33,491 bases of DNA from NCBI GenBank assembly GCA_025351455.1, contig JANXVW010000014.1, positions 1-33,491 on the forward strand, given 5' to 3'. Positions within the stretch are counted from its first letter, which is position 1; every line of letters starts with the position of its first letter. Source of the stretch: Betaproteobacteria bacterium. GTDB lineage: Bacteria; Pseudomonadota; Gammaproteobacteria; Burkholderiales; JACQAP01. Below are positions 22,757-30,536 of this stretch, in pieces. The notes under the pieces are model-generated. The model had not been told where the DNA came from. It did not search any database and saw nothing but the letters and a program-made list of their open reading frames with translations. Both the position numbers and the translations under genes were made by a program.

Positions 22757-24994
22757 TCAATCATCGTCATGCAGGAGCAGATCAAGTATCGGCCCTATCT
22801 CCTTTGCGTTCGCCCCTGGGCGAGGGTAATTGTGATCCAGCAATCCGTAGACCACGAGCTGATTGGAAAAAGTTGCCATGTACACCCTTCCATTGGCAAC
22901 GGTCGGTGGCGTGAATTTGGCAAAATCTCCCAGCGTCCACAATTGACTGAGCTCCTTTGCTGCCACCGCATAGTCTTGTATGAACTGACTGCCGTTTCCG
23001 GGTTGCATGAGTCCGGAGACCCGACCCTCGGGATAGGCGCGCAGGAATTTGTAGAAACCCTCGATCCGGTTGTTTAACACAGCGCCATTGGTTGTCCACA
23101 GTCGCCTGAGGGCCGAGTAGTCGGCAAAGAACCGGAGCAAGTTACTCGGGGACGAATAAAGAACTGGAAGCGCTTCCGCCCGGTAATCTGCAATGAATCT
23201 GGCAGCGCTAGCCAGGCGCAGATCTGCCGGCACTTCATCGCTGGTCCATAGCGGGCGGAGCCCTTCCGCCGAGTACGCTCGCAGCGTGCCTCGGACAACT
23301 TTATTGAGCGCGCCTATCGTCCCTAATACCGGGACCCAGGTATCGCTGGCGTCGTAAGTTGCCGCCCATATGACGCCAGACGCCAGGTCATCACCATGAG
23401 CAGTGAGGGTCAGAATTCCGCCTGGGTGTCCTTCCTGAAGGTCGGGTCCAGTCGCCACAGGCGCGCTGATGGGTATGGGCGCGGCGGGATTGACTTTGTA
23501 TGACGTCAGAAAGGAGTTTTCACCCCAGTGATACAAACGTGACCCGGTGGCGTTGTCGCGCCTTGACCAAAAGACCGGCCCGCCCATGATGTGTCCGGGA
23601 TGCGAGCTGACAATGAAGTGACCTAGGCCCACTCCGCCAGGCGTGTCCAAGCCGGTGTCCGAGTGCTCATGAGCCTCGCCGATGTCGAATTTCTGAACGA
23701 CCATAGGATCTCCGGGCGCGAAGCGCCCGAGGTTGTCGGCCCGCCAGACATGCATGACGCCCTGCTTGCCGCCTCCCACAACAAGATTGGAGTGCGGGAT
23801 GATCATCGGGCCCGAGCCGCCCAAGTCCAAATCCGTTTCATTCAAGTAAAGATGATTGTCGGGCGTGAAGTAATCCTGGACCCTGAGAAATACGGAGTCC
23901 AGCTTCAAAAAGCTGTTTCCGAAATTTGTACTCACTGGAGCAGTCATGTCGTTGCGGCCATTGCCGACGAACAGCAGCACATTTCCGTCGGCATCTATGG
24001 CGGGCGCGCGCCCCGCCATCCAGATTCCACCATGGGCACATCTGCTCGGAATATTTTTCAACGATGCGCAATCGGGACTCGGATCGCCCCCTGGCGTCGT
24101 CACAAACGCGCCAGTTTGCGTAAACGTATTGTTTTCGAATCGATAGGACATCACCCAGCCGTAATAACGCATGAGGTCCTCGTGCGCGCCCCAGGCGACG
24201 ATGATCTGGTTGTTCACCAGCGCCAGACCAGGACGCTGGTTATGGGTGACCGGATCGAATACGATTCCTGACGCGTTTGCCCTGATCTCGATCGGACTGC
24301 CCGCACGATCGTTGCCGGTAACAAGATCCAGAGCGTGAAGACGGTAGGCAGCTTGTCGAGGGGCGCCGAGTGTCCGCGCCATGACAAAAATAATGCCGCG
24401 ATTGCGGTCGATGACCGGGGTGCTCATGATCCCTACGTAGCCGTGAATATTGGGGCCCTTAAGGGAGCAATCCCAACCGGGACACCCGCCCCAATCCCAG
24501 ATCTGATCCATCGATGGAGGCATCCCCAGGCTGCGTCTCCAGATGATTCCGTCGCTGCCCGGTCTCGCGCCGTCGGCATCGAATGCATAGACCAGGTTGT
24601 TGGTCGTCGCTACAAGCACCAGGTTGACGAGCTCCTTGCCGGGTATCCGGACATTTGAGACATATAGAGGCTGGGCATAGACATGCCCGCCGGGCTGCCC
24701 GTTGAAGCTCAAGTCGTAGTGAAACAGCCGGCCGAAATCCCTGCGATTGACGTTGGCCGTATTGAGCAGCGTCTCGTCCAGATTGGCGCCCGTTCTTTCG
24801 TTGTCGTTGCGGCTCGTAAGGACATCCACAGATCGCGCCGAAACATTTTCCCCGATGCAAAGGAGCGCCAGCCCAACGGCGAGCGAGCGGGCCACACTCA
24901 ACAGAATCGCCCCCGTTTCGATGCAGATGATCTGTCTGAATCTCGAGTCGGGACAGCCGTGTCTGGTCATGTGCGGCGTCGCTCGCGCGTTCAT
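22757..24994 (-). CDS. Large exported quinoprotein-like beta-propeller protein
   Basis: From ATG 24994 this is about 745 residues; the frame is open to 25180 and starts at 25084 or 24970 are also possible. A hydrophobic export signal (GAILLSVARSLAVGLALLCIG, ending VSA-R) follows about 25 residues from the start. The mature part opens with DVLTSRNDNERTGANLDE and has propeller strands typical of PQQ-like repeat proteins (LVLVATTNNLVYAFDAD, STPVIDRNRGIIFVMAR, PAIDADGNVLLFVGNGRND, VVGGGKQGVMHVW, PPTVANGRVYMATFSNQLVVYG). Catalytic PQQ ligands were not identified. An extra helical block of about 97 residues interrupts the last blade (22937-23227). It overlaps or abuts the stop of the upstream secreted-protein gene and is probably cotranscribed. 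Confidence 0.75.
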   Translation of the reverse strand: MNARATPHMTRHGCPDSRFRQIICIETGAILLSVARSLAVGLALLCIGENVSARSVDVLTSRNDNERTGANLDETLLNTANVNRRDFGRLFHYDLSFNGQPGGHVYAQPLYVSNVRIPGKELVNLVLVATTNNLVYAFDADGARPGSDGIIWRRSLGMPPSMDQIWDWGGCPGWDCSLKGPNIHGYVGIMSTPVIDRNRGIIFVMARTLGAPRQAAYRLHALDLVTGNDRAGSPIEIRANASGIVFDPVTHNQRPGLALVNNQIIVAWGAHEDLMRYYGWVMSYRFENNTFTQTGAFVTTPGGDPSPDCASLKNIPSRCAHGGIWMAGRAPAIDADGNVLLFVGNGRNDMTAPVSTNFGNSFLKLDSVFLRVQDYFTPDNHLYLNETDLDLGGSGPMIIPHSNLVVGGGKQGVMHVWRADNLGRFAPGDPMVVQKFDIGEAHEHSDTGLDTPGGVGLGHFIVSSHPGHIMGGPVFWSRRDNATGSRLYHWGENSFLTSYKVNPAAPIPISAPVATGPDLQEGHPGGILTLTAHGDDLASGVIWAATYDASDTWVPVLGTIGALNKVVRGTLRAYSAEGLRPLWTSDEVPADLRLASAARFIADYRAEALPVLYSSPSNLLRFFADYSALRRLWTTNGAVLNNRIEGFYKFLRAYPEGRVSGLMQPGNGSQFIQDYAVAAKELSQLWTLGDFAKFTPPTVANGRVYMATFSNQLVVYGLLDHNYPRPGANAKEIGPILDLLLHDDD

Positions 24995-25088
24995 TGCGCC
25001 CGCCAGGAAAGGCCTGAACAAATCGCGCGAAAGAGTCTTAGACCGGCCTTGGACAGGCATGGGGCCACCGAACGCGACAGGCATCCGC

Positions 25089-25670
25089 TCAAGGGGGGCA
25101 GCCTGTTTCACAGGATACGCGGACTCTCCTGCATCTCGCGATAGCTGGTGTTGTTGATGCTGCCGACTCACAGGTATCAAATTTATTCGCGCATGTAGTT
25201 AAACATTGCCTGTGCGCTGCCGACGGTGGCGGAGGCTGCGGCGTTGGAGGAAGTGGAGGTGGTGGCGGCGCTGCCATGCCATCTGCCATGCTGATCGCTA
25301 ATAGTCTCCGACAATCGTTTGACTGGCAGCCAAAAGTGTTTCCGGACCCATCCACTGGCTCCATTAATGGATCGAACACAACGGTAACCACTTTGCCGCT
25401 CAGTTGCGCCGACAGGATCACACTCAACGCCCGGTTCGCAAATTTAGGCTCTAAAGTTGGCGCTGCGAAAAACAGGAACTTTCCATCAACCGGGAATTCG
25501 CATTGCACGTGAATACGATTGGCAAACACGGCTGTTTCGACAGGTTTGCACGCGGCGCTTTTTTCCTGCGCCCAAGCAGCCCCGCTTGACCAGTACAACG
25601 ACAATGCAACTGCAAGACCCAATATGCCTCGTGAGGTTATTCCAACTCCTGATTGTTCCATGTGCATCAT
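25089..25670 (-). CDS. Secreted protein with proline-rich linker and cysteine-rich tail
   Basis: A 193-residue protein; ATG 25670 or 25667 follows GGAAGGA. A signal peptide ends about residue 34 (AAWAQ-E). The middle (about 35-130) has beta-strand character with paired cysteines (ACKPVE, VQCEFP, GCQSNDC). A proline run (PPPPPLPPTPQPPPP) leads to a tail of about 45 residues with six cysteines spaced as C-x3-C, C, C, C-x3-C. No family is recognised; a disulfide-bonded surface or periplasmic protein seems likely. It precedes the propeller gene with overlapping or abutting ends. Confidence 0.68.
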   Translation of the reverse strand: MMHMEQSGVGITSRGILGLAVALSLYWSSGAAWAQEKSAACKPVETAVFANRIHVQCEFPVDGKFLFFAAPTLEPKFANRALSVILSAQLSGKVVTVVFDPLMEPVDGSGNTFGCQSNDCRRLLAISMADGMAAPPPPPLPPTPQPPPPSAAHRQCLTTCANKFDTCESAASTTPAIARCRRVRVSCETGCPP

Positions 25671-28569: not shown

Positions 28570-29355
28570 CTAAAAGAATTCGTATTCCAGGCGCAGAATC
28601 GCGCGGTTATCGCTTGAAACCGGCGTCTCGCCGAACAAAACCGCGGCGCTGTAGAGCAGCTTACTCGTGCCGCCGAGGCTGACCTGGCCATAAAAGGCCG
28701 GCCCTGCCCAGTGCTCCTGTCCATTCGACGGACCGAAATGATTAATGCGCCCCGGTTCGCCAAAAAACTCGACCGCGGGTTCGAATTGCGGATGCAGCAG
28801 ATACTTCAATCTTGCGGCATAGGCGAAGGTGGTACCCGACTCCGCTTCGCTGCCGACCTGGCGCTCCAGGAACAGATTCACGGTTCCCACCCAGCGATCG
28901 ACCGTCTTTTCGAAGATCGGCGCGATGGCTATCTCATTGGGGCCATGATCGGTTAATTCATATTCCGTGAGCAGGCCGAAATCCGCCCAGTATTTGCCCG
29001 GCTCCGACAATTGGAACAGGTTTTCCCATTCAAACGCGTCATGCTTCAAGGAGGCACCCGGTTCTTTCGCGTATACCGTGTAGAGCTCACTGAACCAGTA
29101 ATCGGTGAAGGCGCGCCCGATTGCGAAGACCTGCTTTTCCCCGCCGTCGATTGCATCATTTTTATCGAAGTCGTGAAAACCGCGGTACTCGATTTCATTT
29201 TCCCCCTTGACGACCCGGGGCGAGTAAATCTTGAACGGGGCGGCCTCGGCATACTGCGGCTGGGAGGCCGCAAGCAAGCCGGCAACAACTGCAATTCCCG
29301 TGGCGACGATTGCGTTAATGCGGGGCCTGGATGCCTCGCGACCTATCAATTTCAT
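28570..29355 (-). other. Putative nested product: outer-membrane barrel from an internal in-frame start
   Basis: Starting at the second of two ATG codons (29355), four bases after GGAGG, this would give a 261-residue protein in the same frame as the permease. It would begin with a typical signal peptide (basic n-region, hydrophobic core, AEA cleavage) followed by about 220 residues of beta-barrel character. The alternative is that the site is only a coincidence in the last permease helix (IIGGMM). Confidence 0.4.
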
Positions 29356-30132
29356 CATTCCTCCAATGATTAATAACGTGAGCACGTAAACAACTACCTG
29401 TATACCCGCGGGACGGGCGGTGTAACCAATCAGGGCCTGCAGCGCTTTGCCGGCGATGGAACTGTCCGCCAACAGAAAGGAGCTGTCCCATAGCGGCTCG
29501 GCAAGCGGCGGAATGAGGCCTGCCTGCATGAGAAATCCGGCGGACTGGGAAGCCAGGCCGGCCGCGAGCAGCAGGATCATGGCGCTGGTGACCGTGAAAA
29601 AATGGCGGATCGGCACACCGAGCAGTCCGAAGTACATCAACAGTCCCAGTGCCGCCCCGATCAGCATCCCGGCAGCGCCGCCAAATAACATTTGAACGGG
29701 ATTGGCACCACCGGCAGCAACGCCATAGAGGAACAGCACGACCTCTGCCCCCTCCCGCAAGACGGCAAGGGCAATGGCGCTGCCAAGGACCCATACCGGG
29801 ACGGAACCAAGTGCGACTTTTTTTCCTACGGCGCTCATTTGCGCAGCGATCTCACGCCCGTGCCGGCTCATCCAGATGTTGTGCCAGCCCAGCATCAGCA
29901 CCGCCGCGCCGAGGATGCCGGCGTTGAGGATTTCCTGGCCCATTCCGGAAGCCGATTCGGCAATTTTTCCCGCCGCCGCCGCAATAACAATGGCGCCCAG
30001 GAGTCCCGCCGAGATGCCGCCGATTGCCATCGTGCTTCTGCGCGGAATGCCTCGGCACGCCGCCATGACGATGCCGATGATCAGGGACGCTTCGAGTACT
30101 TCTCGAAATACGATGAGTGCGGTGGCAAACAT
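28570..30132 (-). CDS. FTR1-family iron permease fused to an outer-membrane barrel-like domain
   Basis: A 520-residue protein. Residues 1-258 are an FTR1/FtrC iron permease with seven membrane helices and both REXXE iron motifs (REVLE at 10-14, REGAE at 126-130); plain bacterial FTR1 permeases of this type end near residue 280. The frame continues into MMKLIGREASRPR, a hydrophobic stretch (about 273-289) and YAEA-AP, which reads as a complete Sec signal peptide. Residues about 299-520 have alternating amphipathic strands (YWFSELYTVYAKE, WVGTVNLFLERQVG, FAYAARLKYLLH, RAILRLEYEFF) and end in Phe, as outer-membrane beta-barrels do. A GGAGGA-ATG-ATG at 29364-29353 allows internal initiation. It follows a cupredoxin gene by 15 bases. 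Confidence 0.88.
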   Translation of the reverse strand: MFATALIVFREVLEASLIIGIVMAACRGIPRRSTMAIGGISAGLLGAIVIAAAAGKIAESASGMGQEILNAGILGAAVLMLGWHNIWMSRHGREIAAQMSAVGKKVALGSVPVWVLGSAIALAVLREGAEVVLFLYGVAAGGANPVQMLFGGAAGMLIGAALGLLMYFGLLGVPIRHFFTVTSAMILLLAAGLASQSAGFLMQAGLIPPLAEPLWDSSFLLADSSIAGKALQALIGYTARPAGIQVVVYVLTLLIIGGMMKLIGREASRPRINAIVATGIAVVAGLLAASQPQYAEAAPFKIYSPRVVKGENEIEYRGFHDFDKNDAIDGGEKQVFAIGRAFTDYWFSELYTVYAKEPGASLKHDAFEWENLFQLSEPGKYWADFGLLTEYELTDHGPNEIAIAPIFEKTVDRWVGTVNLFLERQVGSEAESGTTFAYAARLKYLLHPQFEPAVEFFGEPGRINHFGPSNGQEHWAGPAFYGQVSLGGTSKLLYSAAVLFGETPVSSDNRAILRLEYEFF

Positions 30133-30147
30133 GGGGTCTCGAATGAA

Positions 30148-30477
30148 TTATTTGGCGATGATCTTGCCTTGCGCGGTGGACTGGTTGAATTCGCCGAAAT
30201 ACTCATACGTGCCCGGCTTCAACGGTCCGATATAAATGGTCGCCTTCGAGTGGCCGGGGATGATCTTTTCCCGATTGAGGGTATGGCTCTCGAACTCTTC
30301 CGGGGTGGCGTCCTGATTGTCGACTGTCAGCTTGATCTTCTGTCCGGCGGGCACCTGCAATTCCGCCGGATTCATGCGGTGCTCCCTGATAACAATGAGA
30401 TAGGCTTCCTCAGCAACTGCGGGAGCGGCATTAAGGACGCAAGTCACCAGCACGGCAGATAGGGAACGAAGGTACAT
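30148..30477 (-). CDS. Periplasmic cupredoxin-domain iron-uptake protein (FtrB-like)
   Basis: A 109-residue protein from ATG 30477, eight bases after AAAGGA. A signal peptide covers about 1-22 (AVA-EE). The mature cupredoxin fold matches the partner of FTR1 permeases: HRMNPAELQVPAGQKIKLTVDNQD, PEEFESHTLNREK, GPLKPGTYEYFGEF, and TAQGKI. The mature part has no cysteine, so a classical type 1 copper site is excluded; GEFN stands where I recall GEFH in relatives. In FtrABCD-type systems such proteins bind or oxidise ferrous iron for the permease. It leads the operon with the FTR1 gene under a Fur-like promoter. Confidence 0.85.
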   Translation of the reverse strand: MYLRSLSAVLVTCVLNAAPAVAEEAYLIVIREHRMNPAELQVPAGQKIKLTVDNQDATPEEFESHTLNREKIIPGHSKATIYIGPLKPGTYEYFGEFNQSTAQGKIIAK

Positions 30478-30508
30478 AACCAATATCCTTTGTCATCGAG
30501 TAACGCGA

Positions 30509-30536
30509 ATGATAATGGTTTTCATCTACATGTCAA
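30509..30536 (-). promoter_or_regulatory. Sigma70 promoter of the iron-uptake operon
   Basis: On the minus strand TTGACA (30536-30531), 16 bases, TATCAT (30514-30509): a near-consensus promoter with a predicted start about 25 bases before the cupredoxin ATG. Confidence 0.72.
30510..30524. promoter_or_regulatory. Fur box candidate
   Basis: TGATAAT-G-GTTTTCA matches the 7-1-7 Fur consensus TGATAAT-N-ATTATCA at 12 of 14 positions. It overlaps the -10 element and spacer of the promoter, so iron-bound Fur would block transcription of the cupredoxin-FTR1 operon. Confidence 0.68.

Follow-up and report, generated by a model that had tools for sequence, protein, structure and literature searches.

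The window (the whole 33,491-nucleotide stretch of DNA that we analyzed) carries on its minus strand one uninterrupted reading frame, 28570..30132, which runs from an ATG at 30132 to a stop codon at 28570-28572 and encodes 520 amino acids plus the stop. Three parts follow one another in this frame: an FTR1 permease domain (residues 1-264; 29341..30132), recognized by its PF03239 match and by the helices of the structural model; a signal-peptide-like joint (residues 265-297; 29242..29340); and a predicted mature 12-stranded outer-membrane barrel (residues 298-520; 28573..29241), proposed from AlphaFold2 and from structural matches. A cupredoxin gene encoding 111 amino acids (30148..30483, minus strand; PF13473, E=2.9e-29) lies 15 nt upstream of the fused ORF and is itself preceded by a CusA/CzcA-type RND gene, and a convergent VIT1-family gene lies downstream of the fused ORF. 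Elsewhere in the window, two minus-strand ORFs of 807 residues (22757-25180) and 193 residues (25089-25670) have no Pfam match at E≤0.01.

PF03239 (FTR1) spans residues 1-275 of the fused protein with E=2e-28 and 100 bits against a cut-off of 25.3. The EfeU equivalog model NF041756 scored 130 bits (E=1.1e-37), below its cut-off of 255, and TIGR00145 scored 103.7 bits, below its cut-off of 303.8; because both scores fall short, the permease half is, by its sequence profile, a member of the FTR1 family and is not classed as EfeU itself. Both of the REXXE motifs that a preliminary description of this DNA had reported are present on the minus strand, the first as REVLE (residues 10-14; 30091..30105) and the second as REGAE (residues 126-130; 29743..29757), and they sit inside model helices 2-25 and 114-140, respectively. 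A model of the full-length protein (pLDDT 80.7, pTM 0.56) consists of the FTR1 helices, an extra helix at residues 269-286, a low-confidence stretch at 282-300, and 12 strands. FTR1 permeases end with their C-terminus in the cytoplasm. The same description had argued that an extra segment placed after such a C-in permease would export the new domain, and the loop charges of the window protein broadly agree, fitting an N-out/C-in permease followed by an outward-going segment; the exception within this pattern is the uncharged loop 168-174, with R176 lying just past it.

The joint itself begins with a basic stretch, continues into a hydrophobic core, and ends at A295-E296-A297, after which 223 residues remain, the last of them Phe. 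From this sequence we infer a cut between residues 297 and 298. The signal-peptide-like character first noticed in the window extends to all of the 22 distinct fused loci described below: each encodes a 15-residue hydrophobic core (mean 1.84-2.66) preceded by net positive charge, and each has a small-residue-x-Ala site 2-4 residues ahead of the YSP-type motif at the start of the barrel, with Ala at -1 in 22/22 and A (17), T (3), V (1), or S (1) at -3. The criteria behind these counts are simple rules (charge, hydrophobicity, and the -3/-1 residues), the site search was permissive in that it took the nearest fit within 13 residues, and the counts are not independent, with 12 of the 22 loci coming from one family and many of the sequences being close kin. 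As a control, the same pattern was sought in the FTR1 regions of the fused proteins, where 233 of 5499 positions (4.2%) fit it; the figure is 11.4% when any of three successive positions may fit. When a fixed alignment column is used instead, the site scores 17/20, the highest of all columns; another column scores 15/20.

A structure prediction had been proposed as a check on the C-terminal half, which the preliminary description read as about 220 barrel-like residues ending in Phe. AlphaFold2, applied to residues 285-520 with an alignment of 16 sequences, returned 12 strands (mean pLDDT 89.6, pTM 0.83), and we therefore predict from this model that the C-terminal half is an outer-membrane barrel. 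FapF chains ranked first in a Foldseek search (E 5.6e-7 to 6.5e-6). VIA-align likewise placed FapF (Z 21.4, 2.4 Å over 206 residues, 11% identity; model residues 18-235 of 236 aligned) and the COG4313 channel of Pseudomonas putida (Z 21.3, 2.8 Å over 213 residues, 8% identity) at the top, with autotransporter barrels and KdgM/NanC porins ranking next. When PDB sequences were searched with a profile, the barrel had one irrelevant match (E=0.031) and no credible relative; given this result and the low identities, the modeled resemblance to FapF and COG4313 suggests a common fold, which implies neither kinship nor function.

Among sequence families, the window barrel has no Pfam or NCBIfam match, and a CbiN match across the joint of the window protein is at chance level (E=0.23). 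Weak OMP_b-brl matches occur in 12 of 16 members of the barrel family (best 8.6e-5), the window's own barrel having none, and DUF5777 matches occur in 3 of the 16. Across 114 barrels, a set from which truncated, broken, and weak sequences were left out, the positions of E313, E315, E370, D384, E390, and E518 hold an acidic residue in 82-96% of sequences. These positions fall in or at the edge of the predicted strands, an arrangement consistent with a cation pore.

The single open frame from FTR1 into the barrel, the starting point of the preliminary description, is a recurrent architecture: including the window, 22 distinct loci encode FTR1 and the barrel in one continuous frame. They comprise the window and a congener (genome G001, 60% identity to the window protein), one more locus from the window's order, L002, five loci from the order of L004, twelve from family f79, and L093. 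Loci that coincide in position entered the count as one, and the fused loci include L090 and L146, whose barrel is truncated by the end of a contig. In two of the four genomes of the window's genus examined (G002 and G003), neither part was found.

Separate genes for the two parts are also common. Among 21 loci in named genome contigs, 2 are fused (L002, from a Parvibaculum MAG, and L004, from a gammaproteobacterial MAG), 15 carry the two parts as split genes, and 4 encode FTR1 but no barrel. The barrel ATG lies 9-16 nt beyond the FTR1 stop in 13 of these 15 split loci; of the other two, L008 has a more distant ATG and a broken barrel frame, and the gap in L011 contains unidentified bases. The split homologues open with what appears, judged by eye, to be a signal peptide of their own. 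A stop codon between the two parts in relatives had been named beforehand as an observation that would count against the fusion. Such a stop is indeed present in 15 of the 21 loci, and the fusion nonetheless stands, because both forms persist. The short spacing of the split genes does lend some plausibility to the idea that the window's frame is a two-gene operon joined by a sequencing or assembly error, since one small error could join the genes, or that it is a recent non-functional fusion. We regard this explanation as scarcely credible in the face of 22 distinct fused loci, one of them a congener that has diverged to 60% identity, and of a tree (below) in which a branch with 100/100 support places all 19 fused rows on the same side. 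For the architecture as such, fusion in 22 distinct loci rules out both assembly error and a chance frame.

Profile searches located the barrel in 57 of 399 genomes of the window's order and in 55 of 398 of its phylum (these sets overlap), as well as in 28 of 74 genomes of family f79 and in 6 of 40 genomes from each of the two orders to which L002 and L004 belong. In 43 loci (duplicates included) the barrel occurs without FTR1, meaning that none was found on the same strand of the stretch fetched; the cupredoxin gene is present in some of these loci and absent in others. Since so many barrels have no FTR1 on the fetched stretch, the barrel could have a function independent of the permease. In 14 loci (L044, L062, L064, L084, L103, L107, L108, L110, L111, L114, L116, L117, L120, and L134), cupredoxin and barrel genes lie close together with no FTR1 on the stretch fetched, and several of these carry strong Fur-box-like sites. 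A different gene order, cupredoxin, barrel, FTR1, is found in L089. Plasmid records gave 24 matches, of which two, both from Hydrogenophaga, cover 80% or more of the query; no fusion was found among these records, both long matches being FTR1 followed by a separate, broken barrel gene. One of the Hydrogenophaga loci (L159; plasmid NZ_CP044976, typed conjugative) has an in-frame stop that breaks the barrel gene behind FTR1, and the barrel is annotated there as two hypothetical proteins. Genome G051 also has an FTR1 gene followed by a barrel gene with an in-frame stop.

Two phylogenetic trees place the fused and split forms in relation to each other. The first, of 60 FTR1 and barrel pairs (17 fused, 43 split), requires 4 state changes, 2 of which are forced by starred branches; duplicates, L007, L008, L010, L043, two broken-barrel G051 loci, FTR1-less loci, and rows with weak FTR1 were left out. 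The second, more careful tree contains 43 rows, namely 19 of the 22 fused loci (all except L080, L090, and L146) and 24 chosen split rows, and requires 3 state changes, all of them forced. In this second tree, a branch with 100/100 support has all 19 fused rows together with 9 split rows on one side. The window's pair is placed among split rows with support of 99/97. The tree is unrooted, and it is explained equally well by a single early fusion followed by re-splitting and by several fusions. At two split junctions (L087 and L115) the FTR1 stop overlaps the barrel start (ATGA and TAATG), plausibly an intermediate between separate and fused genes.

L149 (genome G801, from the order of L002) bears on the same history. 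Around positions 1350-2208 of this locus, an intact barrel ORF starts with a remnant of the FTR1 tail, about 30 residues long and including its GG-L-M stretch; an in-frame stop lies ahead of the remnant, an RND gene ends just upstream, and no further FTR1 part was found within the 700 nt searched. Here the barrel is retained without an attached permease.

Gene order around the fusion is also conserved. The cupredoxin gene lies upstream in 21 of the 22 fused loci, the remaining one (L085) being a locus without upstream DNA. Cupredoxins have been linked to FTR1 permeases before: passages of one study note a cupredoxin adjoining an FTR1 permease in Leptospirillum (PMC2631029), and EfeUOB-type systems are described, in the sections of another that deal with them, as including cupredoxin-like partners (PMC9174327).

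Upstream of the window's cupredoxin gene, a palindrome scan revealed a Fur-box-like 7-1-7 site at 30510..30524 with 12 of 14 positions matching. Taken across the whole window, a site of this quality is near chance, with 29 of 100 shuffles holding one at least as good; in the upstream stretch alone, 0 of 200 shuffles equaled it. We extended the scan to the relatives, comparing each locus with 200 Markov shuffles of its own stretch. Of 21 fused promoters tested, 20 have a Fur-box-like site of at least 11/14, perfect (14/14) in 9, and shuffle p is ≤0.01 in 17. In the remaining promoters, the sites of L154, L155, and L156 (11/14) have p values of 0.03-0.08, and L075 has no Fur-box-like site. The scan covered 86 loci, 21 of them fused; among the 84 sound rows (split rows L059 and L063 left out), 60 reach 11/14 and 48 have p≤0.01. 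Because the signal is stronger across relatives, the cupredoxin/FTR1/barrel system looks, at the level of promoter sequence, to be iron-regulated, presumably by Fur.

How the two halves of the fused ORF become two proteins, if they do, could be decided at either the translational or the post-translational level. Toward the end of the permease domain, the window contains the sequence GGAGGA ATG ATG (29353..29364, minus strand; codons for residues 256-261, ATT GGA GGA ATG ATG AAA), a Shine-Dalgarno-like site with a possible internal start at M260, both in frame. The working barrel could thus be made mainly from this start, as an ordinary precursor with a signal peptide, and the FTR1 read-through product would be a by-product. 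GGAGGA also stands ahead of in-frame ATG codons in the congener locus L024 and in L004, in each case with a plausible signal peptide after it, and GGA is a minority Gly codon in these three ORFs (12/59, 6/72, and 9/59 for the window, L024, and L004). L025 and L075 have a weaker, four-base match ahead of an ATG or GTG, and in L149 the in-frame stop means that the intact barrel must start within or after the FTR1-tail remnant. Set against this is the distribution of the site: GGAGG with an in-frame ATG occurs in 3 of the 22 fused loci and is missing from the other 19, our scan returned not even a weak match in 17 of the 22, and in L002 and L155 the GG-L-M protein motif is retained although GGAGG is absent. 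Because the 19 loci lack it, an internal start cannot be the general mechanism, and we consider it rather unlikely as the main source of the barrel, though it may add barrel in some lineages.

The length of the linking segment argues for a post-translational step. In the 22 fused proteins, 17-21 residues (6.1-7.6 nm fully extended) separate the end of the hydrophobic core from the first strand, the position of the first strand in the window model having been transferred to the other 21. Measured in the window model itself, from the helix at 269-286 to the strand at 312, the distance is 25 residues, about 9 nm. A normal periplasm is roughly 15-25 nm wide, so that the uncut tether looks too short to cross it, and a barrel destined for the outer membrane would have to be cut free.

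This geometry bears most directly on the idea of a permanent fusion, in which permease and barrel remain joined and the barrel spans the gap between the two membranes as an iron conduit across the envelope. A continuous ORF in 22 loci is what such a conduit would call for, and both the loop charges and the model put the barrel outside the cytoplasm; with so short a tether, a cleavage-type site kept in 22 of 22 proteins, and split forms on the same tree, we think it very improbable. A variant in which the joint is cut slowly or under control, leaving an uncut fraction as an inner-membrane permease with an attached outer-membrane barrel where the membranes approach each other, strikes us as similarly remote. 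If true, one polypeptide would serve both membranes and provide a trans-envelope iron route. The preliminary description had left two outcomes side by side, stable tethering and proteolytic release. Release is now favored, because of the site in 22 of 22 fused proteins, the short tether, the interleaving of fused and split forms on the trees, and the remnant in L149; tethering has become the disfavored alternative. Nothing we observed points to the sensor role that had also been suggested for the barrel.

Taking these observations together, we consider it probable that the fused ORF encodes a polyprotein from which cleavage by signal peptidase I yields two products, a permease and a dedicated pore of the outer membrane, both serving a Fur-regulated iron-uptake operon. 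The operon would comprise the cupredoxin, the FTR1 permease, and the outer-membrane barrel as one unit under Fur control. The FTR1 half would insert into the inner membrane with its last helix ending in the cytoplasm, and the hydrophobic segment that follows would act as an internal Sec signal peptide, carrying the 223 C-terminal residues into the periplasm. A cut by signal peptidase I after AEA (residue 297) would leave the permease behind in the inner membrane, and the BAM machinery would then assemble the freed 12-stranded barrel into the outer membrane, where it would serve the operon as its dedicated pore for a cation, presumably iron. In the window's genus, the internal Shine-Dalgarno sequence and ATG might supply extra barrel.

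If this polyprotein reading is right, an inner-membrane permease and an outer-membrane channel are made as one polypeptide, which would fix their ratio and link their export. The barrel, encoded beside FTR1 and cupredoxin and sometimes inside the permease gene, would be a candidate for the component that acts at the outer membrane in FTR1-type iron uptake. Comparing the fused and split forms also offers a natural way to ask why bacteria fuse or separate proteins that are destined for different membranes. Among the matches listed in the open-access literature (titles and abstract openings), there was no description of an FTR1-barrel fusion; an FTR1 permease that is apparently synthesized together with a predicted outer-membrane barrel as one polyprotein is, to judge from its sequence, a variant that we did not find described.

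Several known systems share individual features with this one. Like the EfeU/FTR1 permeases of the EfeUOB, FetMP, and P19-cFtr1 systems, the window protein matches the FTR1 profile, has two REXXE motifs, and has seven membrane helices (plus one) in its model, and like those systems it is accompanied by a cupredoxin-type partner gene and by Fur-box-like promoter sites. It differs from these permeases in its additional C-terminal signal-peptide-like segment and predicted outer-membrane barrel; in the relevant sections of PMC9174327, the parts described for the bacterial EfeUOB, FetMP, and P19-cFtr1 systems are confined to the inner membrane and the periplasm. A porin-like gene has been associated with an iron-uptake operon before, in that the passages of PMC2631029 on feoPABC of Acidithiobacillus describe FeoP together with a predicted Fur box, much as the barrel gene is associated here with Fur-box-like sites. 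As described in those passages, FeoP differs in being an OprB-type porin that is encoded by a separate gene and belongs to the Feo system rather than to an FTR1 system. FapF and the COG4313 channels are the best structural matches to the barrel, without a credible sequence-profile match in the PDB. In the organization of its ORF, the fusion resembles FbcH of Bradyrhizobium, a cytochrome b/c1 polyprotein that begins with a polytopic inner-membrane protein, continues through an internal signal peptide into a second, exported protein, and is cut by signal peptidase. Both place a polytopic membrane protein ahead of an internal signal peptide and an exported domain in one ORF, the corresponding cleavage being a probable one in our case. 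The two FbcH products both stay in one inner-membrane complex, whereas the second product of the fused ORF is predicted to be a barrel of the outer membrane.
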